Program-made: the position numbers and the translations under genes
Notes under the pieces: generated by a model
Told to the model about the DNA's origin: nothing
Database searches by the model: none
Seen by the model: the letters and a program-made list of their open reading frames with translations, nothing else
Part shown: positions 1,891 through 40,797 of the stretch, in pieces
How the letters are laid out: the number at the start of each line of letters is the position of its first letter
How positions within the stretch are numbered: the first letter of the stretch is position 1
Source: a bacterium
GTDB taxonomy: Bacteria > UBP6 > UBA1177 > JAKLFG01
Length of the DNA stretch: 59,775 bases
Direction of reading: 5' to 3'
Assembly: GCA_022711315.1 (NCBI GenBank)
Contig: JAKLFG010000010.1
Coordinates: forward strand, 1 to 59,775

Positions 1891-1901
1891 CGGCTCTTTT
1901 G

Positions 1902-1930
1902 TTGACTCCTCGTCCTCTTTCCGCTATCCT
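1902..1930 (+). promoter_or_regulatory. Sigma70-like promoter for the UbiA gene
   Basis: TTGACT (1902-1907), a 17-nt spacer, then TATCCT (1925-1930). It lies just after the FG-GAP stop and 27 nt before the chosen ATG, which is preceded by a ggagaagg ribosome binding site. Confidence 0.55.
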
Positions 1931-1957
1931 CGCCCCACGAGTTCCCGGAGAAGGACC

Positions 1958-2833
1958 ATGTTGACGATACTGCGACTCCTGCGCGTCCACCAGTGGGTCA
2001 AGAACCTGCTCATTTTCTTCCCTCTTTTCTTCGCCCTTAAATTCACCGACACCGGACTTCTCGTAAGGGCTTGCGCCGCCTTCATCTTCTTCTCGCTCAC
2101 CGCGAGCGCCGTCTATGTCGTCAACGATCTGCGCGATGTTGCGGAGGACCGCGAACACCCCGACAAACGCCGCCGCCCCCTCGCGAGCGGTGCGATATCG
2201 CACATCGCCGCCGTATTCATCGCCGCGACACTGCTACTCGCCGGGCTCGGCGGCGCCTCGTTCTACAACAAACAACTTTTCCTCATACTCGCCATCTACT
2301 GCGTGCTCAATGTCCTCTACTCGATGCTGTTCAAACGGATAGCGCTCCTCGACATCTTCGTCATCGCGACCGGGTTCCTGCTCCGGCTCATCGCCGGCAC
2401 CGAATACGCGGGACTCGCCGGCGTCCACCCGTCACAGTGGATCATCGTGATGACCTTCCTGCTCGCGCTGTTCCTCGCCTTAGCCAAACGGCGCGACGAT
2501 GTCCTGCTCGCCGGGGAAGGGAAAAAGACGCGGCACGCCGTCCACGGCTACAATCTCGAATTCATCAACAGCGCGCTCGCGGTCATGACCGCCGTCATCA
2601 TACTCGCCTACATCCTTTACACGATGGACCCGGCGGTCGCCCGCCACTTCGGGTCCGACAAGATATACCTGACGGTGATATTCGTCATACTGGGACTCTT
2701 CCGCTACCTGCAACTGACGCTTGTGTACAAGAAAAGCAGTCAGCCGACCGACCTGTTACTGCGCGACCGGTTCCTCCAACTCACGATACTCGGCTGGATA
2801 GCGCTGTTCGTGATACTCGTCTATCTGAGGTGA
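1958..2833 (+). CDS. UbiA-family decaprenyl-phosphate phosphoribosyltransferase-like protein
   Basis: A 291-residue polytopic membrane protein. It matches the 5-phosphoribose-1-diphosphate:decaprenyl-phosphate phosphoribosyltransferase branch of UbiA (mycobacterial Rv3806c type). It opens with RVHQWVKN, carries the first Asp-rich motif NDLRDVAEDREHPDKRRRP at about residues 56-74, and has a second conserved segment LAKRRDD near residue 178. Known members transfer ribose-5-phosphate from PRPP to a polyprenyl phosphate at the inner membrane. The ATG at 1958 was chosen because it has a good ribosome binding site and the family N-terminus begins there; codons upstream in frame overlap the previous gene. 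An SDR gene starts 4 nt after the stop, and prs, the PRPP synthase, is 2.2 kb downstream. Donor and acceptor specificity is inferred from family. Confidence 0.8.
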   Translation: MLTILRLLRVHQWVKNLLIFFPLFFALKFTDTGLLVRACAAFIFFSLTASAVYVVNDLRDVAEDREHPDKRRRPLASGAISHIAAVFIAATLLLAGLGGASFYNKQLFLILAIYCVLNVLYSMLFKRIALLDIFVIATGFLLRLIAGTEYAGLAGVHPSQWIIVMTFLLALFLALAKRRDDVLLAGEGKKTRHAVHGYNLEFINSALAVMTAVIILAYILYTMDPAVARHFGSDKIYLTVIFVILGLFRYLQLTLVYKKSSQPTDLLLRDRFLQLTILGWIALFVILVYLR

Positions 2834-2837
2834 TGCG

Positions 2838-3875
2838 ATGAAGGTGCTGATCACCGGCGGCGCCGGGTTCTTCGGGCTCCACATGACCCGCAAATGTGTG
2901 GCCGAAGGCGACGCCGTGACGCTCCTCGACATCGCCGAATATCACGCCGGGGAATACGACCCGCAGGTGACACTGGTCCGCGGCGATGTGCGCGACACGG
3001 CGAAGATGAGCGACCTCATCGCGGCCACCGATGTGGTCATCCACGCGGCGGCGGCGCTCCCGCTCGAATCGAAAAAAGAGATATTCTCGACCAATGTCGA
3101 CGGGACACGGAATGTCCTTGATCTCGCGCTGAAGCACCATACCAAGCGGTTCGTCTTCATCAGTTCGACCGCCGTCTACGGCGTTCCCGATCATCACCCG
3201 CTCTACGAGACCGACGAGAGGATCGGCGTCGGCCCCTACGGCGAGTCGAAGATAGCGGCCGAGGTGCACTGCGAGGAGGTTCGCGCACAGGGGCTGTATG
3301 TCACGGTCATCCGCCCCAAGACCTTCATCGGCACCCACCGGCTCGGTGTTTTCCAGATACTCTACAACTGGATCGAGGAAGGCCACAAGATACCGGTCAT
3401 CGGCAACGGGAAGAACCGCTACCAACTGCTCGAGGTCGACGACCTCTGCGACGCGGTGTTCAAGGCGTACCGCCACCCCGGCGCCGAGGCGAACGATGTG
3501 TTCAATGTCGGGTGCGCCGAGTTCCGTACCATCAACGAGGATGTCGGGGCGCTCTGCGAACACGCGAAAAGCGGGGCGCGGGTCATGCACACGCCGGTGT
3601 GGCTGGTGATCCCGGCGCTCCAACTGTTCGAGGCGCTGAACCTGTCGCCGCTCTACAAATGGGTCTACGGCACGGCACACAAGGACAGTTTCGTATCGAT
3701 AGAAAAGGCGCAGAAGGTGCTCGGCTGGCAGCCACGCTACAGTGAATCGGAGGCGCTCATTCGCTCCTACCGGTGGTATCTCGACAACAAGGGAACGATC
3801 GCGAAGGAGACCGGGACCTCCCACCGGGTCGCGTGGAAACAAGGCATACTCGCGCTTTTCAAAAGGTTCTTATGA
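2838..3875 (+). CDS. NAD(P)-dependent epimerase/dehydratase (extended SDR)
   Basis: 345 residues. The Rossmann nucleotide-binding motif GGAGFFG is at residues 7-13. The catalytic Ser/Thr lies in FISSTAVYG (about 108-115) and the Tyr-Lys pair in PYGESK (Y134, K138). The fold and length fit nucleotide-sugar or polyprenyl-sugar epimerases and dehydratases. It begins 4 nt after the phosphoribosyltransferase stop, so the two are surely co-transcribed. In mycobacteria the product of that transferase is epimerised to decaprenyl-phosphoryl arabinose by an oxidase plus an SDR (DprE1/DprE2). This gene could play the reductase part, but it could equally be an unrelated sugar-nucleotide enzyme. The substrate cannot be read from sequence. 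Confidence 0.75.
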   Translation: MKVLITGGAGFFGLHMTRKCVAEGDAVTLLDIAEYHAGEYDPQVTLVRGDVRDTAKMSDLIAATDVVIHAAAALPLESKKEIFSTNVDGTRNVLDLALKHHTKRFVFISSTAVYGVPDHHPLYETDERIGVGPYGESKIAAEVHCEEVRAQGLYVTVIRPKTFIGTHRLGVFQILYNWIEEGHKIPVIGNGKNRYQLLEVDDLCDAVFKAYRHPGAEANDVFNVGCAEFRTINEDVGALCEHAKSGARVMHTPVWLVIPALQLFEALNLSPLYKWVYGTAHKDSFVSIEKAQKVLGWQPRYSESEALIRSYRWYLDNKGTIAKETGTSHRVAWKQGILALFKRFL

Positions 3876-16553: not shown

Positions 16554-18044
16554 TCAATAAAGTATCTTCACGAACAGACTGGTGCCGATGAGGAATCCCC
16601 CGCTCCGGAAGCCGGGGAAACCGGGGTTGTTGGTCTGGAGCCCCTGCGCCGAGGCGAACGGGACGCCCGGATCCATGTAGTTGTTGGCGTCATCGGGGAA
16701 CTCGTCGACGATGCCGCCCTCGTCCTCGCCGCGCGACAGGTCCTTCATCGTGGTGTGGTACAAAAGCCACTGCAGTTGCGCCTGCACCCCGCCCGCGACG
16801 GTGACCTTCTCGAACTCGAAGTATTCGGTCCACCCGGCGGCCCAGACGAGCCGGTGGTTGTCCACATAGGTCTCGCGCCCCGTCTGTTCGGGGACCGGCG
16901 ACTGGACGAACTGGAAGTCGAACCCGACCTGCCGCTCCTCGTGTTTGAGATGTAGACCCGCGTTCACGCTCGCCGTCTCGCGCCACTTGTCGGCCGGCTT
17001 GGTGCCGTGGCGGTTCTCGTAGGTGGACCAGTGATGCCACATGCCGCCGAGGACGGGGGCGAGTTTGTAGTCGTGGCCGATATTGAAGGCGTACGATATC
17101 CCGCCGCCTACGCGGAGCGGTTCGTACCCGTAGGTCATCGAACCGGCGCTCCCGAGATAACGCTGGTCGTCGTCCTCGTAGTCCCACCCCCACACCTGCG
17201 TCTTGTTCTGGAGTTCTATCTGGCCGTTGTCGGACTGCAGGTGGGCGGTGCCCGTGATGACGAGGTCCTCGACGGGATAGGCGGCGAACGAGAAATGGGG
17301 CGAGAGCGACCCGGTCACCTTGAGGGAGGTGTTGAGTATCTGGAAGGCCGGGTCCGACGAGTCGGGGACATAGACATCGGTCTGGGTAAGGGTATAACTG
17401 GTGAAGGAAAGCCCCGCACCGAGGTGGAGGTACTTGTTCACCTTGCCGCCGAGCCCGATCGCGATATTGAACTGCTGGGAGCGGTCTTCCAGCAGTTCGA
17501 AATGGAGCGAGTTGTTGAAGAACTGTTCCCGCTCGTCGTTGTAGTAGGGCGTCTGGGTCTGGACGCTCGTGGCGGGGAGCAGCATGTAGAGCCCGAGCGT
17601 GAGCCATTCCTCGATGATGGTCTTGGTCGCACCGAGCGCGATGACCATCTTGATGTCGTTGTAATCGGCCGAGCCGCGCTCGCTGAGCAGGCCGGCGGTC
17701 GGCAGCGGGGTGAACCGTTGGTCGCGGTAGGGCACATCGGCGCCGACGCGGTTTATCTCATTCGATGCCGCCTTGTATATCTCGTCGGTCACATCGTATT
17801 TCGGATCCTTTTTCAGGTGATCGATGAAGAGACTCTCGACCATCATGAAGAAGGCGCCCCGTCCCGAATCCTGCTGCCCGACGAGGAGCGCGGGATTGAA
17901 ATAGGCCGCCTCGGGTCCGACCGTCACGGTGCGGGCGCCGAAGGGGTTCACGCTGTCGGGGGCGCCGACCAGTTCGAGCAGGGACGAGCCATGAAGCGAT
18001 GAAAGAGCCAGCAGGAACGGTATCGACCAGAGAATGCGTCGCAT
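16554..18044 (-). CDS. FadL/OmpP1-like outer-membrane beta-barrel
   Basis: 496 residues with a Sec signal peptide (MRRILWSIPFLLALSSLHG). Near the N-terminus is LVGAPDSVNPFGARTVTVG, then GPEAAYFNPALL, the hallmark of FadL/TodX/OmpP1 hydrophobic-compound transporters. Alternating amphipathic strands fill the rest, and it ends in a strand closing with an aromatic residue (FLIGTSLFVKILY), as expected for BAM-dependent insertion. Substrate unknown. It heads a two-gene unit with the lipoprotein at 15532-16533. Confidence 0.75.
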   Translation of the reverse strand: MRRILWSIPFLLALSSLHGSSLLELVGAPDSVNPFGARTVTVGPEAAYFNPALLVGQQDSGRGAFFMMVESLFIDHLKKDPKYDVTDEIYKAASNEINRVGADVPYRDQRFTPLPTAGLLSERGSADYNDIKMVIALGATKTIIEEWLTLGLYMLLPATSVQTQTPYYNDEREQFFNNSLHFELLEDRSQQFNIAIGLGGKVNKYLHLGAGLSFTSYTLTQTDVYVPDSSDPAFQILNTSLKVTGSLSPHFSFAAYPVEDLVITGTAHLQSDNGQIELQNKTQVWGWDYEDDDQRYLGSAGSMTYGYEPLRVGGGISYAFNIGHDYKLAPVLGGMWHHWSTYENRHGTKPADKWRETASVNAGLHLKHEERQVGFDFQFVQSPVPEQTGRETYVDNHRLVWAAGWTEYFEFEKVTVAGGVQAQLQWLLYHTTMKDLSRGEDEGGIVDEFPDDANNYMDPGVPFASAQGLQTNNPGFPGFRSGGFLIGTSLFVKILY

Positions 18045-18074
18045 CAGGTGCTCCTTTCCAAACAGAACGGCCCC

Positions 18075-18102
18075 ATTATGTCGTTTTTGTCGCAGGAGTC
18101 AA
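18075..18102 (-). promoter_or_regulatory. Promoter for the FadL-like gene
   Basis: Minus-strand TTGACT (18102-18097), 16-nt spacer, CATAAT (18080-18075); the start codon is at 18044 behind a ggagca site. Confidence 0.5.
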
Positions 18103-18173
18103 ATAAACGCTTGCCAAACCGGGGCGTTCGTGCTACTGCTTTTCCGGCGACACCCGCCGCACGGAGTGCTCCC

Positions 18174-19463
18174 ATGTTGTTCCATCCCTGTTCCCAGATG
18201 AAGGACCACGAGCAGTTCCCCCCGCTGGAGATCGTCCGCGCCGAAGGTCCCTACCTCTACACCGCCGACCGGCGGCGGCTCATCGATCCGATATCGTCGT
18301 GGTGGTGCAAGTCGCTCGGTCACGGCCATCCGCGCATCCGGGCGGCGGTCGCGGCGCAGGCGGAGCGCTTCGAGCATGTCATCCTCGCGGGCACGGTGAA
18401 TCGCACCATCGCGGAACTGACCGAACATCTCGCGGCGCTCTTACCGGGGAAACGCCGTGTGTTCTACGGCGGCGACGGCTCGACCGCCGTCGAGATCGCG
18501 CTCAAGATGGCGGTTCACGCGATGATCATTCGCGGCGAAACGAAGCGCACCCGCTTCATGGCGCTCGAGAACGGCTACCACGGCGAAACGGCGCTGACGC
18601 TCGCCGTATCCGACCTCGGCATCTACAAGGAACCCTACCGGGCGCTCGCTCCCGACTACCCGATGCTCACCGGCATCCCCTACTGCTCCGGCGTCGACGA
18701 CCCGCTCTTCGCCGACTGCGGCGCGGCGTGGCCCACGCTCGAAGCGCAACTGGAACGGGAAAAAGAAACGCTCTGCGCCCTCATCGTCGAGCCGGTCGTG
18801 CAGGGGGCGGGCGGCATGCTCATCTACAGCGCCGATCTGCTGCGGCGTCTGCGCGTCTGGACCGCACAGAACGGCATCTACCTCATCGCCGACGAGATCA
18901 TGACCGGCTTTTACCGCACCGGCACGCAACTGGCCGTCGATCATGCCGGGATAACGCCCGATCTCGTCTGCCTTTCCAAGGGACTCACCGCCGGGTGGGC
19001 GGCGATGTCGGCGGTGGTGCTGTCGGGCGAACTCTACGACCTCTTTTATGCCGACTACGGCACCGGACGCGATTTCCTCCACTCGAATACCTACGCCGGG
19101 AACGCACTCGCGGCGGCGGCGGCACTCGAAGCGCAGAAGATATACGACGATGAAAAGATCGCCGGGCGGGTCGCCGCGACCGCTCCGGTACTGCGCCGCC
19201 TCATGCAGGAGGTGGCGACCGAAACGAAACTGCTGACCAATGTGCGCGGTATCGGGATGATAGCCGCCGCCGACATAAAACCGGAATTCATCAAAGCGCC
19301 GCGCACCGGGTACCGCGTCTATCGCCGCGCCGTCGAACTCGGCGCGCTCCTGCGGCCGCTCGGCAACACGATCTACTGGCTCCCGCCGCTCAATATCTCT
19401 CTTGAAACCTTGGAAGAACTCAAAGAAATAACGACCCGGGCGCTGAACGAAACGCTCGGCTAG
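18174..19463 (+). CDS. bioA: Adenosylmethionine-8-amino-7-oxononanoate aminotransferase
   Basis: 429 residues from ATG 18174, preceded by ggag; an in-frame upstream extension has no family similarity. BioA transfers an amino group from SAM to KAPA in biotin synthesis, with PLP. Signatures are ISSWWCKSLGHGHP (the BioA-specific SSWW), YGGDGSTAVEIALKMA, EPVVQGAGGM, the Asp motif DEIMTGFYRTG, and the PLP lysine in CLSKG near residue 268. The stop codon TAG shares CTAG (19460-19463) with the stop of the convergent lipoprotein gene. bioC and bioH lie 5 kb away on the other strand; bioF, bioD and bioB are not in the window. Confidence 0.9.
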   Translation: MLFHPCSQMKDHEQFPPLEIVRAEGPYLYTADRRRLIDPISSWWCKSLGHGHPRIRAAVAAQAERFEHVILAGTVNRTIAELTEHLAALLPGKRRVFYGGDGSTAVEIALKMAVHAMIIRGETKRTRFMALENGYHGETALTLAVSDLGIYKEPYRALAPDYPMLTGIPYCSGVDDPLFADCGAAWPTLEAQLEREKETLCALIVEPVVQGAGGMLIYSADLLRRLRVWTAQNGIYLIADEIMTGFYRTGTQLAVDHAGITPDLVCLSKGLTAGWAAMSAVVLSGELYDLFYADYGTGRDFLHSNTYAGNALAAAAALEAQKIYDDEKIAGRVAATAPVLRRLMQEVATETKLLTNVRGIGMIAAADIKPEFIKAPRTGYRVYRRAVELGALLRPLGNTIYWLPPLNISLETLEELKEITTRALNETLG

Positions 19464-21994
19464 AAATCGTACCGCATAATGGCGCCGCCCGGCGCAAAGA
19501 CGCGCATCTCCTCACCGTCACGGCCCGCTATCGCACTGAAGGGAGTTCCGGCGGGGGCGTGCACATAGTCGATCATCCCGACCGCGCCGAGGTTCTTGTA
19601 ATGATATATCCACCCTTCGGCGTTCATGGTGAGGTAGGCGTTCTGCTGATCGGTCGCCCAGACATCGGTGAAGGCGAGTTCGCCGTAGAGCGAAGTGCGG
19701 GCATCGTTCACCCACTTCGTCCCGTCGTAGGAGAAGATGTAGGCGGTGGCGCCGTCGGGCGACGCGCCGAGCATCCAGATGTTGTCGGCGTCGAGCGCGA
19801 AGATGCGGGTGAGATAGACCTCGGTCTCGCCGGGGGGCAGGCCGCGGTCGGTCAGGTCGGCCGGGAGCGTCACCATCCACTGCACGCCGTCCCAGTGGTA
19901 GAGCGCGTTGGCGCCGCCTGCCCAGATATCGTCGTCGGCGACGGCGGCGAGCGAGAGGATCGGCGGGTCACCCGGTATGTCGATCCTTTCCGATATGGAA
20001 CCATCGATGCGGTAGAGTTTTCCATTCCCCATGAAGGTGTCGACCACCGCGTAGAGCGCGCCGTCGACAGACGGGGAAAGGATATCTATGGTCCCCTCCT
20101 CGATGACCGCCGTCTCGGAGAGGTCGCCGTCCACCAACGACCAGACCGCACCATCGCGGTCGGCGAGATAAAGGGAGTCGCTCGTGCAGGCGACCGCCGT
20201 GGCGTTGCCGAGTGGGATATCTGGATCCAGTTGGCGCCACTCCTCGTTGTTGAAGAACAGGGAGCGTAGCCCGTCGGTGGCGAAGTAAAAGCCGCCATCG
20301 AGGGCGCAGGCACTCGTCGGCCCGATCGGTCCGGGCTCGAACGAAGCAAGCCCTTCGAATGGCCACTCAAGGGTCGTTATCCGGTCGGCCGGCAGTTCGC
20401 GCTCGAAACGGAGACCGGTGAACGACCAACAGTCCCCTTCCTCGAAGCACCAACGGACCGTCTCAGCGTCGGGACGGCTGAAAAATTCATCGCGCGCCGC
20501 CTTAAGAGCCGTTACCGTCGCCTCGTCGGGCTCGGCGGTGCTCCAGCGGGTGCCGTCGTAGTGGAGATATCCGTCGGCGGTCTCGGCGTAGATATCGTTG
20601 TAGGCACTGCCATACAGGTCGACGATGTCACGACGCGACGCCATGAAGCGCCACGCCGTGCCACTCCAGTGGGCGAAGAATCTGTCGCCCGCGACCCACA
20701 CATCGAATGGTGAATTGGCGAACAGCGCCTTCACCGCGCCGGGGAGACGCTGACGGTTCGTCGAGAAGAACTTGGTGTCCCACGAACCGGTGAAGCCGCG
20801 GTCGCCCGCGACCCACAGCCGTTCGCCGGAACGGCTCGCGCTCCGTATCGTCCCCTGTAGCGCGACCGGCATCGCTATCCACGCCTCGTCGAGGTGGCGC
20901 CACAGCATACCCTCCGCATCGGCGACGAACACCTGCCCGTCGGCAAGGGCGCCGACCATGGTGTAATCGATATCGGCGCGCGGCGGTTCGACCGTATCCC
21001 ACGCATCGCCGTCATAGCGCGCCACCGCACCGCCGTCTCCGACCGCCCAGAGTTCGCCCGAGGGAAGGCCGACGATATCGTTGAACACGGTGGAGGTCAT
21101 CGTCGAGGAGAAGTTCGTATCGTCGTGATAGAGGAGCCCCATCTCGCCGGCGGCCCAGAAAGCGCGCGGTGCGACGGCCCACAGCGCGTTCACCTTCGAG
21201 GGCAGCGCCGATACCGTCGTCCACGCTTCGCCGTCCCAGTGGAGGATGATCTCGCGACCGGCCGCCCAGATGTCGTCGGGGCCGGTGCCGTGGATGTCGT
21301 AAAGCGCGTTCTCGTTTTCGGTCCAGTGGGTCGGGAAGCCCTCCTCGTCTATCTCGCGGTCGCAGGTGAGCAGGCCATCTTTCAGGAACAGGATGCAGCC
21401 GTCGGTCGCCACCGCCCAGACATGGTCGGCGTCGGCGGCGTAGATCGCCTGCATGTTCCCCCCCTGCCGCAACTGGTAGGGTAGCCGTTCCCACGAAACG
21501 CCGTTGTAGAACATGACGGTCGAATCGCCGACCGCCCAGACATGCGTTCCGTCGAGCGCGTAGATATCGTTGAGCGTATCGCCCTGCGGATAGGGATGCT
21601 CCCAGCACCACCCCTCGTCGCAGAGCTGATGGCCGCAGACATGCGGCGTCCCGCCGCCGCCGCAGGTATCGGGAAGGAGGCACTCGCCGCAGGAGAGTTT
21701 CTCGCCGCCGTCGAGGATCACTTCGCCGCAGTTCGCGCCGATGAAATCACAGGTGCCGGGCTCGGGGCTCGGGTAGCCTTCGTCGGGGAATTCGGCCTGC
21801 GGACCGGCGTCGTCGGTAAGGAGTTCGTCCGGCTGATCCGACGAGTCGGGCTGTTCCAGCGCATCCGAAAGGTCCGATGAGTCCGAAATGTCCGACTCGT
21901 CCGGCTGGTCCCCCTCTTTCGGGGCCGAGGTGCCGGAAGAGCAGGCGACGAGCAGCGCCGCAAGTGCCGCGACGAGATACCAGAACATACGCAT
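19460..21994 (-). CDS. Large lipoprotein with WAVG-type propeller repeats
   Basis: 844 residues. The signal peptide ends in the lipobox LLVAC at about residue 18, and a Ser/Asp-rich linker (SDISDSSDLSDAL) follows. Next comes a Cys-rich module around residues 80-135 (CDFIGANCGE...CGECLLPDTC...CGHQLCDEGWCWE). The main body holds repeats of the form [VI]WA[VA]G[DE]...[YH][DN]G..W, seen at VWAVGDSTVMFYNGVSW, VWAVATDG, IWAAGREIILHWDGEAW, LWAVGDGGAVARYDGDAW and IWAGGANALYHWDGVQW. These are characteristic of beta-propellers of exported proteins. It starts 17 nt after ribF and probably rides on that operon. Function unknown. Confidence 0.8.
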   Translation of the reverse strand: MRMFWYLVAALAALLVACSSGTSAPKEGDQPDESDISDSSDLSDALEQPDSSDQPDELLTDDAGPQAEFPDEGYPSPEPGTCDFIGANCGEVILDGGEKLSCGECLLPDTCGGGGTPHVCGHQLCDEGWCWEHPYPQGDTLNDIYALDGTHVWAVGDSTVMFYNGVSWERLPYQLRQGGNMQAIYAADADHVWAVATDGCILFLKDGLLTCDREIDEEGFPTHWTENENALYDIHGTGPDDIWAAGREIILHWDGEAWTTVSALPSKVNALWAVAPRAFWAAGEMGLLYHDDTNFSSTMTSTVFNDIVGLPSGELWAVGDGGAVARYDGDAWDTVEPPRADIDYTMVGALADGQVFVADAEGMLWRHLDEAWIAMPVALQGTIRSASRSGERLWVAGDRGFTGSWDTKFFSTNRQRLPGAVKALFANSPFDVWVAGDRFFAHWSGTAWRFMASRRDIVDLYGSAYNDIYAETADGYLHYDGTRWSTAEPDEATVTALKAARDEFFSRPDAETVRWCFEEGDCWSFTGLRFERELPADRITTLEWPFEGLASFEPGPIGPTSACALDGGFYFATDGLRSLFFNNEEWRQLDPDIPLGNATAVACTSDSLYLADRDGAVWSLVDGDLSETAVIEEGTIDILSPSVDGALYAVVDTFMGNGKLYRIDGSISERIDIPGDPPILSLAAVADDDIWAGGANALYHWDGVQWMVTLPADLTDRGLPPGETEVYLTRIFALDADNIWMLGASPDGATAYIFSYDGTKWVNDARTSLYGELAFTDVWATDQQNAYLTMNAEGWIYHYKNLGAVGMIDYVHAPAGTPFSAIAGRDGEEMRVFAPGGAIMRYDF

Positions 21995-28332: not shown

Positions 28333-31300
28333 ATGCATCCCGCACGCTGGGTGATCCTGCTTACCATGATGCTTTTCTTCGCCGCCGCCTGCGACGAGGA
28401 CGGTCTCGCGGGGAAGAACTCGCTCGTCAAACTGAGCGAGGAACCGGCCGGCGGTGCCTGCCCGCAGGGCGGGACCAAGGTCGAGAGCGGTCTCGACCTC
28501 GACGGTGACGGGGAACTCGACCTCGACGAGGTCAGGAATGTCCAGTATTTCTGCCGCGACGCGGGATGCACCATCACCGACAACGGCGACGGCACCAAAA
28601 CGATCGCCTGTAGCGGCGACAGCAGTGTCACCGTGAAGGACGGCGCCGACGGCGCGGGCTGCGCCATGACCGACAACGAGGACGGCACCTACACCATCAC
28701 CTGCGACGGCGTATCGGTGATCGTTAGCGATGCCTCGGGGGACAACGCCCATAAGACATTGATCGTGATCGAGGAGGCGCCGGAGGGGACCTGCCCGAAC
28801 GGCGGCCAGAAGGTGACGATAGGCATCGATCGCGACGATGACGGCACGCTCGACGAGAGCGAGGTGACCTCCACACGCTACCTCTGCAACGGCGCCAACG
28901 GCCATGACTCGCTGACCACGATAGACCCGCTGGCACCGGGCGAGACCTGCCCCGCCGGCGGCCACATGATACGCAACGGCGTCGACACCGACGACGACGG
29001 CACGCTCGATGCGGGCGAGGTCGTGAGCGAAGTGGCGGTCTGCGACGGCGCCGACGGCAACGGCGCGATGACCGAGGTCTCCCCGCTCGACCCGGGCGAG
29101 GGCGGCTGCGCGGCGGGCGGCTACCTGTTCCGGACCGGCGTCGACGCGAACGGCAACGGCGCGCTCGACGAGGGCGAATACGACGAGGTGGCGGTCTGCC
29201 ACGGCGAGAAGGGCGATCCGGGCGAGGACGGCGTCTGCGCCGGCAACCATCCGCCGGTCATCGTCTCGATCGATGTCCCCGAGCCCGACGGTCTGCAGGA
29301 AGATACCTACCGGCTCGACATACCCTACACCGTGACGGTGAACGCCGACGATGAGGACGGCGACGCCCTTTCCTACGAGGCGATCGGCGGCTACGCATCC
29401 ATCGCCGCGGGCGCGGAACCGAACCAGATCGTCGTGACGCCGCGCGCGCTCGGCGGTCCCTTCTCGTTCGCCGTGATCGTCAGCGACGGGTGCCAGGTGA
29501 CGATGGGCGACTTCGTCATCGGCGAGGTGTGGGACGAGACGACCCCGCCCTTCATCGACGATCACGATATCTGGTTCGAGGACATCACCGGTACGAGCGT
29601 CTCCGTCCGCTGGGAGAAGGCGTGGGACGACTGGAGCGCGATACAGGACCTCGAATACAAGGTGGTCTATGCGCTCGACCCGGAAGAGATAGACGATATC
29701 GACCTTATAGAACTGGGCGGCGGCACGATCGCCATGGACTGGACCGTCGATGTCGACACCGCGCCGATAGCGGGACTCACGGAAGGCCAGCAGTACTACG
29801 CGACGGTGCTGGTGCGCGACGAGTACCACAACATGGCTCAGTACGACATCGCTCCCTTCACGATGCCCGATGTGACCGCGCCGACCACCGGCGGGGACAT
29901 CGCGTTCAGCGACATCGCCGAGACCTCGTTCACCGTCTCGTGGGACGGAGCGAGTGATAATCTCAGCGACCTATCGACCATCGAGTATAAGGTGGTCTAT
30001 TCGACCGATCCGGAGGAGATAGACACCGAACAGGAGGTACAGGACCTCATGGGCGACGGCGTGCTCGTGTCATGGGAGGCCGAGGTGTACTCCTACGAGA
30101 TGATCGGCATGCTCGACGGGATGGTCTACTATGTTAATGTGCTCGTCCGCGACGCGGCGGGCAATACGGTGTTGTACGGCGTCGAGAGCGTGATGACGCC
30201 CGACACCACGCCACCCGATGACATATCCGGCCTCTACGCGGTCGGACTTAACGGTCGCGTCTGTTTCCGCTGGGACGACCTGGGCGACCACTCGCTCGAT
30301 CACTACGAGGTGACCTGGACACCCAACGCTCCGGCCGAGCCGATGTCGATCCCGGCCGACGCCTTTTTCCGCTGTATCGACGGCCTGACCAACGACACCG
30401 AGTATACCTTCTCGATCGTCGCGATCGATCGTGGTAACAACGAGTCCGCCAACCCGACGACCGTGACGACGACCCCGGCCGATCCCGGCATGGGCTATGC
30501 CATCAACGGATCCATCAATTCATCGTCGAATCCGGCGGAAACGAAACTCTACCGCTTTGACCCGAGTACCGCCAAGACCACCCTCATCGGCGCGACGGAT
30601 GTGTGGAACGCCAACGGCCTCGCGGTCAATCCCGATGATGATTCCCTGTATCTCTTTGCGACCAATTGGGATTACAGTATCCCATCCCTCTATACGCTTG
30701 ACCCGCTCACCGGAGAAGCAACATGGGTAGGCGATCTCGATCCCGGCAACTTCTCCTGGACCTCCGATCTGGCCTTCTCCGCCGACGGCACGCTGTACGG
30801 GTGGGGCCGCAATTACAACGGTGCCTTCGTGATCGATCTCAAGACGGCGCAGGGGGCCTTCCTCGGCGATTCGGGCGTTACCGGCAATACCGCCGGTATC
30901 GCCTTCACCCCGGGCGGGAACCTCATCATGAAAAGTTCCAACACGCTCAACACCATCGACCTCGCGACCGGCGCGGGGACCTATCTCGCCGACATCGATG
31001 TGCAGTATTTCGAGGACGAGACCGGATGGGGCTGGGACACGCTCCGCAATGTGCTTGAGATATCCGATACCGGCATCGGTTTCTCGGTCGTCCGCACCAA
31101 TTCCTCATCTTATCTGTACGCGTTCAACTTCGACGATATGGTGGCGATACCGGTCGGCGACTTGAAGGTCGCGGGTATCAGCGCCGTGGAACTCGAACAT
31201 ACCTTCAAACCGATAGACCAGAAATTCTCCGGGATCAAGCGGTTCGTCCCCGAAAAACAGTTGGATGCGTGGACCGTCTGCCACACCGACACTTATACCT

Positions 31301-31719
31301 ATGACGACGATGGTGGCACTCCTTTTGCCGACATTCAGACCGCCTGCAAAGGCGCGAATCTCATGATCGCCTGTCGTCCGGTCGGCTCATCGCTTTTCAC
31401 CCTCGCCGCGTGGGCGCCGCGTGACGACGCCATCTACGACACTGGCACCGACACAACGACCACGCATGATGCCAACGGTGTGGCGTGGTACTTTAATGAC
31501 AACATGTCATGGGGCTTCGCTCCTGAAGGAGCCGGTGTGAACAAGGATTCTTGTGATTACGATGATAGCGTATTACCGAATCAAGATGTGCGACTCTGCT
31601 GGCATGTCTGGAGCGAGACGCTTCGCGGCGGCTATCGCTGTGGTGCCGAGAATACTGACAGCGGCATGACCGGCGGCAACGATCAATGGGAACGGGTCAT
31701 TCTGCACGCCGATTTCTGA
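28333..31719 (+). CDS. 1128-residue mosaic lipoprotein: Cys/Asp repeats, FN3 and propeller-like segments
   Basis: The signal peptide ends in the lipobox FAAAC (about residue 20). Residues 35-305 contain at least four DUF7151-like repeats, pattern CP.GG.....G.D.D.DG.LD..EV....Y.C.G, with EF-hand-like Asp loops. Around 310-400 is an Ig/cadherin-like segment, then three FN3-like domains (about 410-715) introduced by DDHDIWFEDITGTSVSVRW and similar lines. Residues 720-960 read as a propeller-like or quinoprotein-like region (LYRFDPSTAKTTLIG). A 150-residue Cys- and Trp-rich end (about 975-1128) is lower in GC than the front and may be a separately acquired domain. Likely an adhesin or matrix protein on the cell surface; function unproven. 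Confidence 0.8.
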   Translation: MHPARWVILLTMMLFFAAACDEDGLAGKNSLVKLSEEPAGGACPQGGTKVESGLDLDGDGELDLDEVRNVQYFCRDAGCTITDNGDGTKTIACSGDSSVTVKDGADGAGCAMTDNEDGTYTITCDGVSVIVSDASGDNAHKTLIVIEEAPEGTCPNGGQKVTIGIDRDDDGTLDESEVTSTRYLCNGANGHDSLTTIDPLAPGETCPAGGHMIRNGVDTDDDGTLDAGEVVSEVAVCDGADGNGAMTEVSPLDPGEGGCAAGGYLFRTGVDANGNGALDEGEYDEVAVCHGEKGDPGEDGVCAGNHPPVIVSIDVPEPDGLQEDTYRLDIPYTVTVNADDEDGDALSYEAIGGYASIAAGAEPNQIVVTPRALGGPFSFAVIVSDGCQVTMGDFVIGEVWDETTPPFIDDHDIWFEDITGTSVSVRWEKAWDDWSAIQDLEYKVVYALDPEEIDDIDLIELGGGTIAMDWTVDVDTAPIAGLTEGQQYYATVLVRDEYHNMAQYDIAPFTMPDVTAPTTGGDIAFSDIAETSFTVSWDGASDNLSDLSTIEYKVVYSTDPEEIDTEQEVQDLMGDGVLVSWEAEVYSYEMIGMLDGMVYYVNVLVRDAAGNTVLYGVESVMTPDTTPPDDISGLYAVGLNGRVCFRWDDLGDHSLDHYEVTWTPNAPAEPMSIPADAFFRCIDGLTNDTEYTFSIVAIDRGNNESANPTTVTTTPADPGMGYAINGSINSSSNPAETKLYRFDPSTAKTTLIGATDVWNANGLAVNPDDDSLYLFATNWDYSIPSLYTLDPLTGEATWVGDLDPGNFSWTSDLAFSADGTLYGWGRNYNGAFVIDLKTAQGAFLGDSGVTGNTAGIAFTPGGNLIMKSSNTLNTIDLATGAGTYLADIDVQYFEDETGWGWDTLRNVLEISDTGIGFSVVRTNSSSYLYAFNFDDMVAIPVGDLKVAGISAVELEHTFKPIDQKFSGIKRFVPEKQLDAWTVCHTDTYTYDDDGGTPFADIQTACKGANLMIACRPVGSSLFTLAAWAPRDDAIYDTGTDTTTTHDANGVAWYFNDNMSWGFAPEGAGVNKDSCDYDDSVLPNQDVRLCWHVWSETLRGGYRCGAENTDSGMTGGNDQWERVILHADF

Positions 31720-34614: not shown

Positions 34615-34733
34615 GTTGACCTCTCCGCGCGGTTCGCTATGATGTCGTCATGAAGTTCAGTCGGTGCGACATGGTCCGCGCGGCCGCCGCGCTTTTTTTC
34701 ACGCTCCTCTTCTTCGTCTGGGGCACCGCCGGG
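34615..34733 (+). repeat. 119-bp promoter/N-terminus cassette, copy 1
   Basis: 118 of 119 bases are identical to 38552-38670; the sole difference is G at 34644 versus A at 38581. It covers promoter, start codon and the first 28 codons, ends abruptly after the codons for GTAG, and the flanking sequences then diverge. Confidence 0.9.
34616..34643 (+). promoter_or_regulatory. Leaderless promoter of GT-C gene 1
   Basis: TTGACC (34616-34621), 16-nt spacer, TATGAT (34638-34643). Only 6 nt (GTCGTC) separate the -10 box from ATG 34650, and there is no Shine-Dalgarno, so transcription should start at or within a base of the A of ATG. Confidence 0.65.
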
Positions 34734-36863
34734 AAATTCTGGCGCCCGTTCCAACTCTATGTCCCCTGGTTCTACCTGCTCCTCGCCGGGCTGACGGCTA
34801 TCTTCCTCCTGCCGCCGCTCCGCGCCGCCGCCGTGGCGCTCTTTTCCCGTATCGTGCCGCGCCGCTATATCCTGTTCCCGCTTCTCGCCCTCTGCGTGAC
34901 GCTCCTCATCAACCGGCTGGTCTTTCAGGGACTCCCGCACATACAGGACAGCATCAACTACCTGTTCATGGCCGAGCAGTTCGCCGCGGGGCGGCTCGAC
35001 CACCCGATGCACCCGTTCTACGAGTTCTTCCGCTTCCTCTACCTCATACCGGACGGTGAAAAGATATATTCGCTCTTTCTCCCCGGTTATTCCCTTTTCC
35101 TCGTCCCCTTCGTGATGATCGGCGTCCCCTTCATCGTCAACCCGCTCCTGACCGCCGCCAATGTCGCGCTCGTCGGCCGCATCGCCGACGACCTCTACGG
35201 CCCGCGCGTATCGACCGCCGCGATGGCGCTCGCGATACTTTCGGTGTTTCTCATGGTGATGGGCGGCACCTTCATGGGGCACCCCTTCTGCGCCGCCCTG
35301 ACGCTCGGCACCGTCCTCTGTTTCCTCCGGGCCCGCCGCGAAGAAACGGGAAAGCGGGCGCTCCGCTACGCCGCCGCCGCCGGCTTCGCGCTCGGTTGGC
35401 TGGTCTTCACGCGGCCGCAGAACGCGCTTTTCCTCGCTTTGCCGCTCGCGCTTGCCGCGCTTGTAGAGATACGCCGCCGGGGGACGGTGCCGCGCGGACT
35501 TGTCCTCACCGCCGCGTTCTTGCCGTGGCTTGTCGCGCTCTTTTTATATAACGCCCACTACACCGGCGACCCGCTTCTGTTCAAGCAGGACCCCTATTTC
35601 AACTACAGCGAGCCGAACGAGTTCTGTCACCGTTTCGGCATCGGCCGCGGCTGTCCCCATTCGAACTGGACGGTGCTCCCCGAAGAAGGGCTCTCCTGGG
35701 GGCACGCCGCCTATGTCACCTACCGGCGGCTCTCGCCGCTCATCCTCAACACCTTCGGCCACCCGCTCCTGTTCCTGCTCATACCCTGCGCTTTTCTCTT
35801 CTACCGGTCCGAGCGACCGAAAAAGGCGCTTTTTCTCGCATCGCTGTTCCTCTTTTCGGCCGGCGGGTATTTCTTCTTCTACTTTGACGGCAATGTCTTC
35901 GGGCCCCGCTACTACTATGAAACGACCTTCTTCCTTGCCATACTCGCCGCGCTCGGACTCGTCGCGCTTTCCGACCGCATCGCCGCGACGCCCCGGCCGC
36001 ACCTCTTCGCCGCGCCGCTCGGCGGGCTTGTCGCCGCCGCCTATCTCTCGTTCGCCTTTATCGTGCTCCCCGACCTTCTCACCATCTATTCGCTCGGCTT
36101 CTGGAAGGTCGAGCGGTCGCTCTCGGCGGAGATCGAACGGCAGGGCATCCATAACGCGGTGGTCTTCATAGACCGCGAGGAACTCATCGGGTCCGGCTTC
36201 TCCGTGATGCGACACGACGATTGGGACCGGAACGATGTCATCTATGTCCGCGATCTCGGCGTCCGCCCGAACAGCGCCCTCATGCACTACTATGCGCCGC
36301 AGGGACGAAAGTTCTACCGCGCCCGCTACGAAAAGATAGAGAACAACGAACGACCGCCGGAGATAACGCCGCTGACCGACATCGAACTGCCGCCCAACTA
36401 TGTCGTCACCGAACTTGAGGACAAACTCTACCCGCTCACCGGCGCGCCCGACTACTGCAACCGGTATCCCAACCGGCCCGATCTCGACCGTTACAGCGCT
36501 CTGCCGCCCCCCGGCGAACTGGGCATCGGCTTTTCGAAAGGGGCACTCTTCTGCCGGTTCACCGCGCCGGGCCAATTCTACGACCTCGGCCAGCATCTCG
36601 CGGTCGCGGGGCGGTACTCGGTCGAATTCGTCGGGGTGACCGGTCCCGTGATGGGTGCCTTCCGCGTCCTCATCGACGGCCGCGAGGCCGGCCGCATCGA
36701 CTTCACCGGCGAACGGTACGAAAAGGTGACCCGCCGGATCGACGCCGATCTCGAAGCGGGGTCCCACCGCATACGGCTGGAACCGGAAACGAGCGGCCGC
36801 GAGGTCTATTTCCTGCTTGATCTTGTCGAGTTCTTCACCGACGCCGCGTCACGCCCCGAGTGA
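34650..36863 (+). CDS. GT-C-fold membrane glycosyltransferase, paralog 1
   Basis: 737 residues. The first 480 carry about eleven to thirteen hydrophobic helices. The first lumenal loop has QDSINYLFMAEQFAAGRL, resembling the acidic site of GT39/ArnT-like polyprenyl-phosphate-sugar transferases (Asp in an HIQDS context). Repeated GYSLF-like and YDGPR segments follow. The last 250 residues form a soluble periplasmic domain with RHDDWDRNDVIYVRDLG and a terminal beta-sandwich (AGRYSVEFVGVTGPVMG). GT-C enzymes use lipid-linked sugars and act on the periplasmic face. Paralog 2 (38587-40797) is similar along its whole length. The end overlaps the convergent UbiA gene by 15 nt. Donor and acceptor unknown. 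Confidence 0.8.
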   Translation: MKFSRCDMVRAAAALFFTLLFFVWGTAGKFWRPFQLYVPWFYLLLAGLTAIFLLPPLRAAAVALFSRIVPRRYILFPLLALCVTLLINRLVFQGLPHIQDSINYLFMAEQFAAGRLDHPMHPFYEFFRFLYLIPDGEKIYSLFLPGYSLFLVPFVMIGVPFIVNPLLTAANVALVGRIADDLYGPRVSTAAMALAILSVFLMVMGGTFMGHPFCAALTLGTVLCFLRARREETGKRALRYAAAAGFALGWLVFTRPQNALFLALPLALAALVEIRRRGTVPRGLVLTAAFLPWLVALFLYNAHYTGDPLLFKQDPYFNYSEPNEFCHRFGIGRGCPHSNWTVLPEEGLSWGHAAYVTYRRLSPLILNTFGHPLLFLLIPCAFLFYRSERPKKALFLASLFLFSAGGYFFFYFDGNVFGPRYYYETTFFLAILAALGLVALSDRIAATPRPHLFAAPLGGLVAAAYLSFAFIVLPDLLTIYSLGFWKVERSLSAEIERQGIHNAVVFIDREELIGSGFSVMRHDDWDRNDVIYVRDLGVRPNSALMHYYAPQGRKFYRARYEKIENNERPPEITPLTDIELPPNYVVTELEDKLYPLTGAPDYCNRYPNRPDLDRYSALPPPGELGIGFSKGALFCRFTAPGQFYDLGQHLAVAGRYSVEFVGVTGPVMGAFRVLIDGREAGRIDFTGERYEKVTRRIDADLEAGSHRIRLEPETSGREVYFLLDLVEFFTDAASRPE

Positions 36864-37700
36864 CGGGCCGAACTTCACCGCGAGAAAGACGAGTCCCGCC
36901 ACAGCGTACAGGATGCGGTACAGCCGCCGGTGCCGCAGGAAGTCGCCCTGCCCCGGCGCCGCGCGGAGCGACAGCGCGACCGCCGACGCCATCTGGAGGA
37001 GCGACGCCACGGCGAACGGCGCGAGGTGAGCGGGCGTCGCCATGCCGCGGAGCGCCGCGACGATGAGCAGCGCGAGGGCGGCGGCGCAGATGACGATGTG
37101 GAGCCGTATCGAGCCGGACGCGCCGTACCGGACCGCGCCACTCCGGATCCCCGCCGCGCGGTCAGCGTCGAGGTCTATCAGTTCGTGGTTGACATGACCG
37201 GCGCTCAGGATGAGCCCGAAATAGAGGGCGAGCGCAAGCGAGCGGACCCCGAGCTCCCCGAACATGAGCCACCCGATCTGGAACTGGACCGCGCCGCCGA
37301 GGATATGGAGCGCCGTCCCGGCGCGCGGGAGGTATTTCGCCCCGAAGCGGGGATAGGAATAGAGCGCCGACAGGATGAAAAGCGCCGCCGCGCAGGGTGC
37401 GGCGCGCCGCTCCACGAGCAGGAAGAGCGCGAGCGCGGCGATAAGCGACGCGGCCGCCACCGCCGGAGAGCGGTCGCCCGGCACGACCGTGAGTCGCGGG
37501 TTGGCGGCGTCGTCGGACGACCCGGCCCAACTGTTGAAGGCGTAGACCGAGAGCGTCACGAGGTACGACGCGAGGAAAAAGAGCGCCGGCCGCGCGCCGA
37601 AGAAGGCCCGCGCATCGGAAGCGGCGAAGAACGAGCCGACGAAGATGAAGCCCGCCACCAGGAACACCTCGGTGAATCGGTATGCGCGAAAGGTCCTCAT
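36849..37700 (-). CDS. UbiA-family prenyltransferase, second type
   Basis: 283 residues with about eight membrane helices. The two Asp-rich motifs are NSWAGSSDDAANPR (about 57-70) and NHELIDLDADRAAGIRS (about 168-184), as in UbiA-superfamily enzymes that prenylate aromatic or other acceptors. It differs from the phosphoribosyltransferase-like UbiA at 1958-2833, which has NDLRDVAEDR. The product is not predictable: quinone, chlorophyll-like or lipid synthesis are all possible. Its 3' end overlaps the GT-C paralog 1 stop. Confidence 0.75.
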   Translation of the reverse strand: MRTFRAYRFTEVFLVAGFIFVGSFFAASDARAFFGARPALFFLASYLVTLSVYAFNSWAGSSDDAANPRLTVVPGDRSPAVAAASLIAALALFLLVERRAAPCAAALFILSALYSYPRFGAKYLPRAGTALHILGGAVQFQIGWLMFGELGVRSLALALYFGLILSAGHVNHELIDLDADRAAGIRSGAVRYGASGSIRLHIVICAAALALLIVAALRGMATPAHLAPFAVASLLQMASAVALSLRAAPGQGDFLRHRRLYRILYAVAGLVFLAVKFGPSLGA

Positions 37701-37765
37701 GCGTCTCGTACCCGGACAGTTCCCTTAATAGACCGCGTAACGGCCGGTTTTGTTCCCGTCACGCC

Positions 37766-37793
37766 ACTCTACCCCGTGACGGTCAAAAAGCAA
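37766..37793 (-). promoter_or_regulatory. Promoter for the UbiA gene
   Basis: Minus-strand TTGCTT (37793-37788), 16-nt spacer, TAGAGT (37771-37766), matching the proS promoter in position and most bases. Confidence 0.5.
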
Positions 37794-37804
37794 TGCGGGG
37801 ATGA

Positions 37805-37832
37805 TTGACCTTCGGCCGCTCTTTGGTATGAT
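37805..37832 (+). promoter_or_regulatory. Leaderless promoter of the truncated GT-C remnant
   Basis: TTGACC (37805-37810), 16-nt spacer, TATGAT (37827-37832), then ATG after 6 nt at 37839. Spacing is identical to the promoters at 34616 and 38553. Confidence 0.6.
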
Positions 37833-37838
37833 GGCGAC

Positions 37839-37934
37839 ATGAAAGGGTCCCCTGGCGATCTTATGCGGCTTTTCTGCGCCGCCTTTTTTGTCGTGCTCTT
37901 CTTTGATCCTCCCCAACAAAAGTTAACAAACTAA
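37839..37934 (+). pseudogene. Truncated third GT-C paralog (5' remnant)
   Basis: A 31-codon ORF encoding MKGSPGDLMRLFCAAFFVVLFF plus nine more residues. It aligns with the start of both GT-C paralogs (MK-S--D--R---A-FF--LFF), and its promoter and leaderless ATG are spaced the same. After about codon 22 the similarity ends and AT-rich DNA with the next lipoprotein gene begins. The simplest reading is a GT-C gene cut down by an insertion or deletion. A functional small membrane peptide cannot be excluded. Confidence 0.6.
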
Positions 37935-37936
37935 TT

Positions 37937-38512
37937 ATGAGAAAAATACTTTCCCTCGGCTTACATCTGATCTTCTTTCTTTCCTGCAAAGAGTCCTGTC
38001 CGGAATTACAGGTCTGGGAAGCGTCCGACGACACGGTCCCCAACGAAGAGGTCTGTCCCGGCATGAGCCGCTACGCCGGGTTCAATGTCGCCGAGACCCT
38101 GAACTATCTCCAAAGCATACGCCTGACGCTGGAGAGCGTTCATTCCCTGATCCCGGAGGGCGCTCTTCCCGATGAGATCGTCTTCGGTCCCTTGAAAAAA
38201 TGCACATACGGCGACCCCCATATCCCGGCGGACGCCGGGGCGGACTGCATCCCACAGCCGTGGATGTTCTCCTTTTATGATCACGCGGGGAACGACCCCT
38301 TCCCCCATCTCATGTTGTCCATCGGACAGGCGGACGGGATACAGACAGCATCCTTGGGCGTACTCGTTGAACCGATCGTCCACTGGCACGATGATTTTCA
38401 TATCGAGACACAAAAAGGGTTCGCGCTCGGCGAGGTGCTCGAAGGCCAATTCTGTACCCTGAACTCCACTTCGTGTTATGCGTTCTCCTATCGGGTCGCA
38501 TCGAAGGAGTGA
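37937..38512 (+). CDS. Small lipoprotein of unknown function
   Basis: 191 residues with a short signal peptide, MRKILSLGLHLIFFLSC, whose FLSC is a lipobox. Cysteines recur (CPELQ, VCPGMS, KCTYGD, DCIPQP, FCTLNSTSCY) and probably form disulfides. Upstream 60 bp are AT-rich and composition is lower in GC than the flanking GT-C genes. It starts 2 nt after the truncated remnant, so it could be read from that promoter. No domain recognised. Confidence 0.65.
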   Translation: MRKILSLGLHLIFFLSCKESCPELQVWEASDDTVPNEEVCPGMSRYAGFNVAETLNYLQSIRLTLESVHSLIPEGALPDEIVFGPLKKCTYGDPHIPADAGADCIPQPWMFSFYDHAGNDPFPHLMLSIGQADGIQTASLGVLVEPIVHWHDDFHIETQKGFALGEVLEGQFCTLNSTSCYAFSYRVASKE

Positions 38513-38551
38513 ATATCTCGGAACGGTTCGTCGGTCATATTTTTCCTTCCT

Positions 38552-38670
38552 GTTGACCTCTCCGCGCGGTTCGCTATGATATCGTCATGAAGTTCAGTCG
38601 GTGCGACATGGTCCGCGCGGCCGCCGCGCTTTTTTTCACGCTCCTCTTCTTCGTCTGGGGCACCGCCGGG
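38552..38670 (+). repeat. 119-bp promoter/N-terminus cassette, copy 2
   Basis: The counterpart of 34615-34733 with a single mismatch. Similarity drops sharply beyond both ends of the cassette. Confidence 0.9.
38553..38580 (+). promoter_or_regulatory. Leaderless promoter of GT-C gene 2
   Basis: TTGACC (38553-38558), 16-nt spacer, TATGAT (38575-38580), 6 nt to ATG 38587; same as copy 1 apart from one base outside the hexamers. Confidence 0.65.
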
Positions 38671-40797
38671 CGGTTCTGGACGCCGCTCGCGGTCTATGCC
38701 CCCTCCTTCCATCTTCTTCTCGCGGGGATCGTCGTCGCCCTGCTGTTGTTCCGCGCCCCTCTGCGCCGCATACTCCCGCCGTTCCGCGACGCCGCCGTCG
38801 CGCGCCGCTATCTCCTGTTCCCGCTCGCCGCCTTCGCCGCGACACTGCTCATCGGGCTTCTCGTCTTTCAGGGGCTCCCCCACATACAGGACGGCATCCA
38901 CTACCGCATGATGGCCGACCAGTTGGCGCACGGCCGGATGGATCACCCGATGCACCCGCACTACGAATTCTTCCGCTTCCTCTACCTCATCCCCGACGGC
39001 GAACGGATAGCGTCGCTGTTCCTCCCCGGCTATCCCCTCTTCCTCGCCCCGTTCGCCCTTTTCGGCGTCACGTTCCTCGCCAACCCGCTGCTCACCGCCG
39101 CCAATGTCGCGATCGCCGGCCGCATCGCCGACGACCTCTACGGCCCCCGCGTATCGGCCGCCGCGATGGCGCTTGCGCTCCTTTCCCCCTTCCTCATGAT
39201 CATGGGCGGCACCGCGATGGCGCACCCCTTCTGCGCCTTCCTGACGCTGACCGCCGTCCTGTTCTTCCTGCGGGCCCGCCGCGAAGGGAGCGGGAAACGG
39301 GCGCTCATACTTTCCGCGGTCGCCGGCTTCGCGCTCGGCTGGCTCGCCTTCTGCCGCCCGCAGAACGCCTTCCTGCTCGCCCTGCCGCTCGCGCTCGCGG
39401 CGCTTTTCGAGATCCGCCGCCGGGGCACCGTGCCGCGCGGGCTTGCGCTCACCGCCGCCTTCCTGCCGTGGCTTTTTGTCCTGCTCCTCCATAACGCCCA
39501 CTACACCGGCGACATCCTGACGCTCCGGCAGGATATCTATTTCAACTACAGCGAGCCGAACGATGGCTGTTTCGGGCTCGGGCTCGGCCGCGCCTGTCCC
39601 AACGCGACCTGGCGGCCGCTCCCCGACGACGGCTTCACGCTCACCGCCGCGGTCGTCGTGACCTACCACCGGCTCGCGCCGCTCATCGCCAATACGCTCG
39701 GTCACCCGCTCCTGTTCCTGCTCATCCCCTGCGCTTTCCTGCTCTCTCGCGGTGGACGGATCAGGCGGGAACTGTTCCTCGGCGGGCTTTTCCTCGCGAC
39801 CGTCGGCGGGCATTTCCTCTACTATTTCGACGGCAATGTCTTCGGCCCGCGCTACTATTACGAGACCGCCTTCTTCCTCATGATACTCGCCGCGTTCGGT
39901 CTGGTCTCGCTCGCCGACCGCATCGCCGCCGCGCGCCGGCCGCACCTCTTCGCCGCGCCGCTCGGCGGCTTTGTAGCCGCCGCGTACCTGTTCACCGCCG
40001 TCGCGATACTCCCGCCGCTCTTCGATTCCTACGCCTTCGGGTTCTGGGGCGTCGGTCGCGCGCTCGCCGACGAGGCGGCGCGGCAGGGCATCCACAACGC
40101 GGTCGTCTTCATACAGCCCGAACAGTACATCGGGTCGGGGCTCGCCGCGATGCGCCACGACGACTGGGACCGCAACGACATCGTCTATGTCCGCGATCTC
40201 GGCGACCGCCCGAACAGCGCCCTCATGCATCACTACGCGCCGCAGGGGAGGAAATTCTACCGCGCCCTTTTCACCGACATACGGACCGCGACGGTGCCAC
40301 CGCTCATCACGCCGCTGGCGGGACCCGACCTGCCGCCGAACTATCTCGTCGCCGAGATGGAGGACAAACACTACCCGCTCCGCGGCATTCCCGATTACTG
40401 CAACGAATATCCGAACCGGAGCGACCTCTCAACATATGTATCCTTCCCGCCGCCCGAACGCATCGGGGTCGGGTTCTCCAAGCGGGCTTTTTTCTGCCGG
40501 TTCACCGCACCGGGGCAATTCTACGAGTTCGGCCAGCAGTTCTTTCTCGCGGGGCGCTACGCCATCGATATCGTCGGGGTGACCGGCCCCGAGATGGGGG
40601 CCTTCCGGGTGCTCATCGACGACCGCGAGGTCGGCCGCGTCGATTTCACCGGCGAACGGTACGAGAAGGTGATACGGCAGGTCGAGGCGACGGTCGCGGC
40701 GGGTTTCCGCCGCATACGGCTCGAGCCGGAGGACACCGCGCGCGGCACCTATTTCCTGCTCGATCTTATGGAGTTCTTCCGCCGTCCGGAGGAGTAG
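38587..40797 (+). CDS. GT-C-fold membrane glycosyltransferase, paralog 2
   Basis: 736 residues, alignable from end to end with the protein at 34650-36863. The first 28 residues are identical, then divergent (AGRFWTPLAVYAPSFH against AGKFWRPFQLYVPWFY). The first-loop acidic motif is IQDGIHYRMMADQLAHGRM. Shared landmarks include HPMHP.YEFFRFLYLIPDGE, NPLLTAANVA, the YFDGNVFGPRYYYET loop, RHDDWDRND and PNSALMH.YAPQGRKFYRA. The periplasmic C-terminal domain is kept. The two probably use the same lipid-linked donor on related acceptors; both are inferences. It is convergent with guaB. Confidence 0.8.
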   Translation: MKFSRCDMVRAAAALFFTLLFFVWGTAGRFWTPLAVYAPSFHLLLAGIVVALLLFRAPLRRILPPFRDAAVARRYLLFPLAAFAATLLIGLLVFQGLPHIQDGIHYRMMADQLAHGRMDHPMHPHYEFFRFLYLIPDGERIASLFLPGYPLFLAPFALFGVTFLANPLLTAANVAIAGRIADDLYGPRVSAAAMALALLSPFLMIMGGTAMAHPFCAFLTLTAVLFFLRARREGSGKRALILSAVAGFALGWLAFCRPQNAFLLALPLALAALFEIRRRGTVPRGLALTAAFLPWLFVLLLHNAHYTGDILTLRQDIYFNYSEPNDGCFGLGLGRACPNATWRPLPDDGFTLTAAVVVTYHRLAPLIANTLGHPLLFLLIPCAFLLSRGGRIRRELFLGGLFLATVGGHFLYYFDGNVFGPRYYYETAFFLMILAAFGLVSLADRIAAARRPHLFAAPLGGFVAAAYLFTAVAILPPLFDSYAFGFWGVGRALADEAARQGIHNAVVFIQPEQYIGSGLAAMRHDDWDRNDIVYVRDLGDRPNSALMHHYAPQGRKFYRALFTDIRTATVPPLITPLAGPDLPPNYLVAEMEDKHYPLRGIPDYCNEYPNRSDLSTYVSFPPPERIGVGFSKRAFFCRFTAPGQFYEFGQQFFLAGRYAIDIVGVTGPEMGAFRVLIDDREVGRVDFTGERYEKVIRQVEATVAAGFRRIRLEPEDTARGTYFLLDLMEFFRRPEE

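Follow-up and report, generated by a model that had tools for sequence, protein, structure and literature searches.

How two long-diverged paralogues come to begin with almost the same 119 bp is the question raised by a contig of 59,775 nt (hereafter the window, meaning the whole stretch that was analysed), which belongs to a MAG of 2.67 Mb in 110 contigs that is 83% complete. Gene 1 (34650-36863) and gene 2 (38587-40797) encode proteins of 737 and 736 aa, respectively, whose first 28 residues are identical; all features of the locus from gene 1 to gene 2 lie on the + strand unless stated otherwise. A preliminary description had reported that positions 34615-34733 and 38552-38670 match at 118 of 119 positions, and that the matching unit comprises a -35 box, a -10 box, the start codon and 28 codons. 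Nucleotide alignment bore out the match and all of these elements are present. At gene 1 they are TTGACC (34616-34621), a 16-bp spacer, TATGAT (34638-34643) and an ATG at 34650. The sole mismatch between the two copies (G at 34644, A at 38581) is the base directly after the -10 box, the longest exact run common to both is 89 bp, and the 28 common codons contain 0 synonymous and 0 non-synonymous differences. The sequence to the left of 38552 is unrelated to that to the left of 34615. A search of the whole MAG found the 119-bp cassette at these 2 places only. Other repeats were noticed in the window, namely five direct repeats with a 186-bp period at 10-1053, within an ORF for a repeat protein (16-1890), and diverged repeats of ~90 bp with Gly/Asp-rich motifs at 28443-29180, within a 1128-aa ORF (28333-31719).

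Beyond the cassette, the residues had been described as mostly different. This is not so, as the two proteins are 69% identical across 730 residues, and alignment of the complete genes at the nucleotide level gave identities of ~0.7-0.9 in most 60-bp bins. Nor is identity uniformly high over the entire genes, with dS of 0.60 and dN of 0.22 between the bodies. The contrast between the 28 shared codons and the diverged bodies is far beyond chance. The 119 bp are conspicuous in that they are new, while the rest of the gene pair is old.

The two genes had been labelled glycosyltransferase paralogues. That they are paralogues is clear from their identity; for the enzymatic label it is the predicted fold that speaks. 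Neither protein matched a Pfam family, and a match to NF047440 was weak and below its cutoff. The AlphaFold model of the gene 1 product (pLDDT 82) suggests a multi-pass membrane protein resembling GT-C-fold glycosyltransferases, with Foldseek matches to OST, PglB, AglB, ArnT and ALG9/12 (E 1e-6 to 1e-4, TM about 0.4), and a C-terminal CBM6/35-like domain, which matched CBM35/36/6. Between the paralogues lies a gene for a UbiA-family prenyltransferase (36849-37700, - strand; Pfam PF01040).

The order gene 1, UbiA, gene 2 is common to the window and to three relatives, the same-genus MAG G001 (JAKQHE010000208.1; relatives of Ca. Sumerlaeota) and the same-family genomes G002 and G004. In all three relatives the 5′ ends of the paralogues differ from each other. 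Gene 2 of G001 is uninterrupted, begins MKGSPGDLMRLFCAAFFVLLFFVWGTAGRFW, and has a promoter and N-terminus that differ from those of gene 1; its 5′ end matches that of the window's gene 1 at only 76 of 119 positions. The body of the window's gene 2 has 93% nucleotide identity to G001 gene 2 versus 76% to gene 1. At the other gene, the 5′ end of G001 gene 1 matches that of the window's gene 1 at 118 of 119 positions and the cassette is therefore native to gene 1. Since one difference in 119 bp also separates the gene 1 copies of the two species, the single mismatch between the window's copies proved unusable for dating the event.

Alignment of the window with G001 revealed a single insertion, with flanks that are 92-99% identical and a gene 2 body that is collinear (92-95%). 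No homologue of the lipoprotein-like gene contained in this insertion was found in G002 or G004, and it is also missing between UbiA and gene 2 of G001. The window holds the derived state, because G002 and G004 have gene 1, UbiA and gene 2 without the lipoprotein gene. Two causes proposed in the preliminary description are excluded by these comparisons. Selection on the 5′ end does not account for a G001 gene 2 that combines so different a 5′ end with a nearly identical body, and a family-wide modular promoter-plus-signal unit is at odds with orthologues whose 5′ ends have each diverged, and with only two copies in the genome. For the gene 2 body compared with G001, dN/dS is 0.30, a figure that indicates purifying selection and also covers the time before the event; this is consistent with gene 2 still being in use.

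A closer inspection of the window revealed that 37804-37903, adjoining UbiA, is one more 5′ end, diverged from the other two, which the preliminary description had overlooked. It matches the intact 5′ end of G001 gene 2 at 94 of 99 positions and retains TTGACC (37805-37810), TATGAT (37827-37832), an ATG at 37839, and 21 codons plus two bases of the next. Its counterpart in G001 runs straight into the gene 2 body. In the window it ends at codon 22/23, where the insert of ~648 bp (37904-38551) begins. An origin from a third paralogue was ruled out by this contiguity with the gene 2 body in G001, and the remnant is the 5′ end with which gene 2 originally began, now severed from it. The break has created a 31-codon leader ORF (37839-37934) with the translation MKGSPGDLMRLFCAAFFVVLFFDPPQQKLTN, followed by a stop, which ends 2 nt before the ATG of the lipoprotein gene. 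The old gene 2 promoter thus probably drives the lipoprotein ORF through this leader, with translational coupling suggested by the spacing.

The direction of copying was read from diagnostic sites, defined as those at which the gene 1 copies of the two species have the same base and G001 gene 2 has a different one. The window's gene 2 is of gene 1 type at 42 of 42 such sites within 38552-38643. No diagnostic site lies within 38644-38670, and downstream of 38670 there are 111 sites of gene 2 type versus 22 of gene 1 type. On these sites, gene 1 is the donor and gene 2 the recipient; the certain copied tract is 38552-38643 and the right breakpoint falls within 38644-38670. The reverse direction, with gene 2 as donor, was ruled out by the native state of the gene 1 5′ end in G001. 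The 27-bp stretch in which the junction falls, CTCTTCTTCGTCTGGGGCACCGCCGGG, was common to both paralogues beforehand. The sharp edge noted at codon 28 is real, and it lies there because this previously shared stretch ends at that codon. No microhomology is visible where the copy begins on the left (TTCCT/GTTGACC).

The insert begins with the terminus of an IS3-family IS, TGATCCTCCCCAACAAAAGTTAACAAACT (37904-37932), which is 93% identical over 29 bp to an IS present elsewhere in the source genome, at contigs C57 and C67, the C57 copy being near-complete. By itself this match is modest (E 1.3e-4), yet the left junction at 37904 coincides exactly with the first base of the terminus (TGATCC...). 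The ORFs of the IS at C57 match HTH_Tnp_1, HTH_21 and rve, a pairing of HTH_Tnp_1 with HTH_21/rve that is typical of the IS3 family. A related form of the IS end is found at two contig ends of G004; in the source genome and in G004 copies of the end terminate contigs, as repeats would. The C57 element (17000-20222, reverse strand) itself lies at a contig end, and its right end is directly repeated over 92 bp, with the right terminus at two offsets (1269 and 1361). Beyond 37932, no further sequence of the C57/C67 IS was found in the insert, nor was a right IS end or a target-site duplication, the right side being occupied by the gene 1 copy.

The insert is without orfA/orfB transposase genes, and its only gene is an orphan ORF of 191 aa (37937-38512), which on inspection by eye has a signal peptide and a lipobox-like FLSC and is a putative lipoprotein. 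Its GC3 is 0.70 versus 0.79-0.89 in neighbouring genes. It had no match in Pfam or NCBIfam, and no credible homologue among 60 relatives, viral contigs and plasmids, where matches with E of 0.006-0.06 were too weak. A search for a hairpin or terminator just upstream of the copied promoter gave nothing better than in shuffled sequences. A lipoprotein gene of another kind was observed in G001 (contig C143, reverse complement, ~728-3205), where an RCC1-repeat lipoprotein gene of ~2.4 kb stands between the gene of an EamA transporter and gene 1. It is bordered on either side by ~17 bp (GGGACGCATxxTCACxC) from the 3′ end of the EamA gene and may be a parallel to the insert in the window.

The start signals follow one pattern throughout. 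TTGAC...TATGAT-N6-ATG was found at both genes in the source genome, G001, G002 and G004, with zero occurrences in a reversed-pattern control. In the window the -10 boxes end 6 nt before the ATG at each of the 5′ ends (34638-34649, 37827-37838 and 38575-38586), and the mRNAs of this gene family are probably leaderless throughout the lineage. Because it contains a complete promoter with the -10 box 6 nt from the ATG, and a leaderless mRNA is expected, the copied unit would be self-sufficient.

Taken together, these data make it very likely that an insert severed gene 2 from its own start and that a copy of the gene 1 promoter and start now stands in place of the lost one, a judgement that applies to the event as described and not to its route. 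Comparison with G001 shows that gene 2 once possessed a promoter and N-terminus of its own, which are now stranded at 37804-37903. It also shows that, since its lineage diverged from that of G001, gene 2 has been interrupted at codon 22/23 by an element that brought an IS3-family end together with a lipoprotein-like gene and parted the body from its promoter and start. Gene 2 has been restored by a copy of gene 1 that starts immediately upstream of the -35 box, ends within codons 20-28 and is joined in frame to the body; the 27-bp shared stretch may have served as homology for the joint. As an outcome the same promoter now precedes both paralogues, and the severed one lies upstream of the lipoprotein ORF. 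The arrangement is known from one MAG and only 29 bp of the IS are present.

The product of this event is well established, and the route to it may have been templated copying, duplication and deletion, or one-sided recombination with incoming DNA. The likeliest route may be that the broken side of gene 2 invaded gene 1 and copied outward past the promoter, after which the copied end would have been end-joined to the insert with loss of the right terminus of the element. The same joint could equally have arisen by duplication, if a deletion then connected gene 1 to gene 2. Here the region would have been duplicated in tandem, with the insertion falling in one gene 2 copy, and a deletion across the shared stretch, from the second gene 1 copy to gene 2, would have fused the start to the body. 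An ordinary crossover would suffice, the neighbours being ~76% similar and 4 kb apart, a working gene 2 would be kept throughout, and promoter capture through duplication and deletion has been documented experimentally (PMC11111574). However, two or three steps are required that have left no extra trace, and only by chance would the duplication joint have fallen where the copy now begins, immediately upstream of the -35 box. As an account of the whole locus we regard this as possible rather than probable.

The insert and the 119-bp copy may instead have arrived jointly, by homology-facilitated illegitimate recombination (HFIR) with DNA of a related strain whose lipoprotein gene stood directly upstream of the gene 1 promoter, the 27-bp stretch anchoring the right side and the left side being joined illegitimately. 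One homologous and one non-homologous end are what HFIR would be expected to leave (PMC3240628), the insert is AT-richer, as its GC3 indicates, and in G001 another lipoprotein gene is inserted right upstream of gene 1. However, with the left junction precisely on an IS terminus, transposition is a better fit than an illegitimate joint; a donor locus so arranged was not encountered, and 27 bp is a short anchor. Joint arrival by HFIR is rather unlikely in our view.

A metagenome assembly artefact, in which the short IS end or the 119-bp repeat had seeded a chimeric join, deserves consideration in a MAG of 110 contigs and 83% completeness, whose contigs elsewhere terminate at the same IS end. Nevertheless, the two copies are told apart by the base at 34644/38581 and by left flanks that bear no relation to each other, they share no exact match longer than 89 bp, and the reading frame is intact across the joint. 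Moreover, the insert is flanked on one contig by the correct G001-syntenic neighbours, an arrangement that would not result from a random chimera, and we judge an artefact very unlikely. Plain gene conversion, or purifying selection keeping the 5′ ends of the diverged paralogues alike, would explain why 118/119 identity is limited to the 5′ end, and is highly improbable given that these ends differ between the paralogues of G001, G002 and G004 and that the original gene 2 5′ end survives upstream of the insert. The recent gene conversion proposed in the preliminary description was thus right as to recent copying between the paralogues, from gene 1 to gene 2. As plain conversion of a homologous tract it does not fit, because gene 2's own 5′ end was left 648 bp upstream and was not overwritten.

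A broader reading of the replacement of the gene 2 start would be that this lineage repeatedly gains single genes for secreted lipoproteins, placed within resident genes or at their edges, by a mechanism through which the lost end of the interrupted gene is copied as well and the insert becomes tolerable. We consider this improbable; if true, the 5′ end of the window's gene 2 and the EamA 3′ end in G001 would be two independent products of that process.

Lastly, we compared the locus with known systems. IS3-family ISs share with it the left terminus, TGATCC..., related to that of the near-complete C57 copy, whereas the insert here has neither transposase nor right end and carries an orphan gene instead. 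HFIR likewise borders foreign DNA with one homologous and one non-homologous joint (PMC3240628), but the left end in the window is an exact IS3-type terminus. Gene conversion between paralogues also produces a short, near-identical, one-way tract with a breakpoint in shared sequence; here, in contrast, only one edge is homologous and the 5′ end of the recipient is kept as a scar behind the insert. In promoter capture by rearrangement (PMC11111574) a promoterless coding region regains expression through the promoter of a neighbour, as gene 2 would have done. However, the joint in the window adds a start codon and 22-28 codons taken from a paralogue and fused in frame at the corresponding point of the gene, while gene 1 as the donor remains intact.

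Our literature search found no specific description of exactly such a case. The ancestral and derived states, the donor, the severed original and the insert are all readable at this locus, which allows donor and recipient to be named and the breakpoint to be placed to within 27 bp. It illustrates how a gene broken by insertion can return to use with the promoter and start of a paralogue, and how a promoter left without its gene may be taken over by a newcomer. It also cautions against reading nearly identical 5′ ends in paralogues as a sure sign of selection on a module. Set beside these systems, the locus is a clear natural case of 5′-end replacement by a paralogue rather than a new kind of system.
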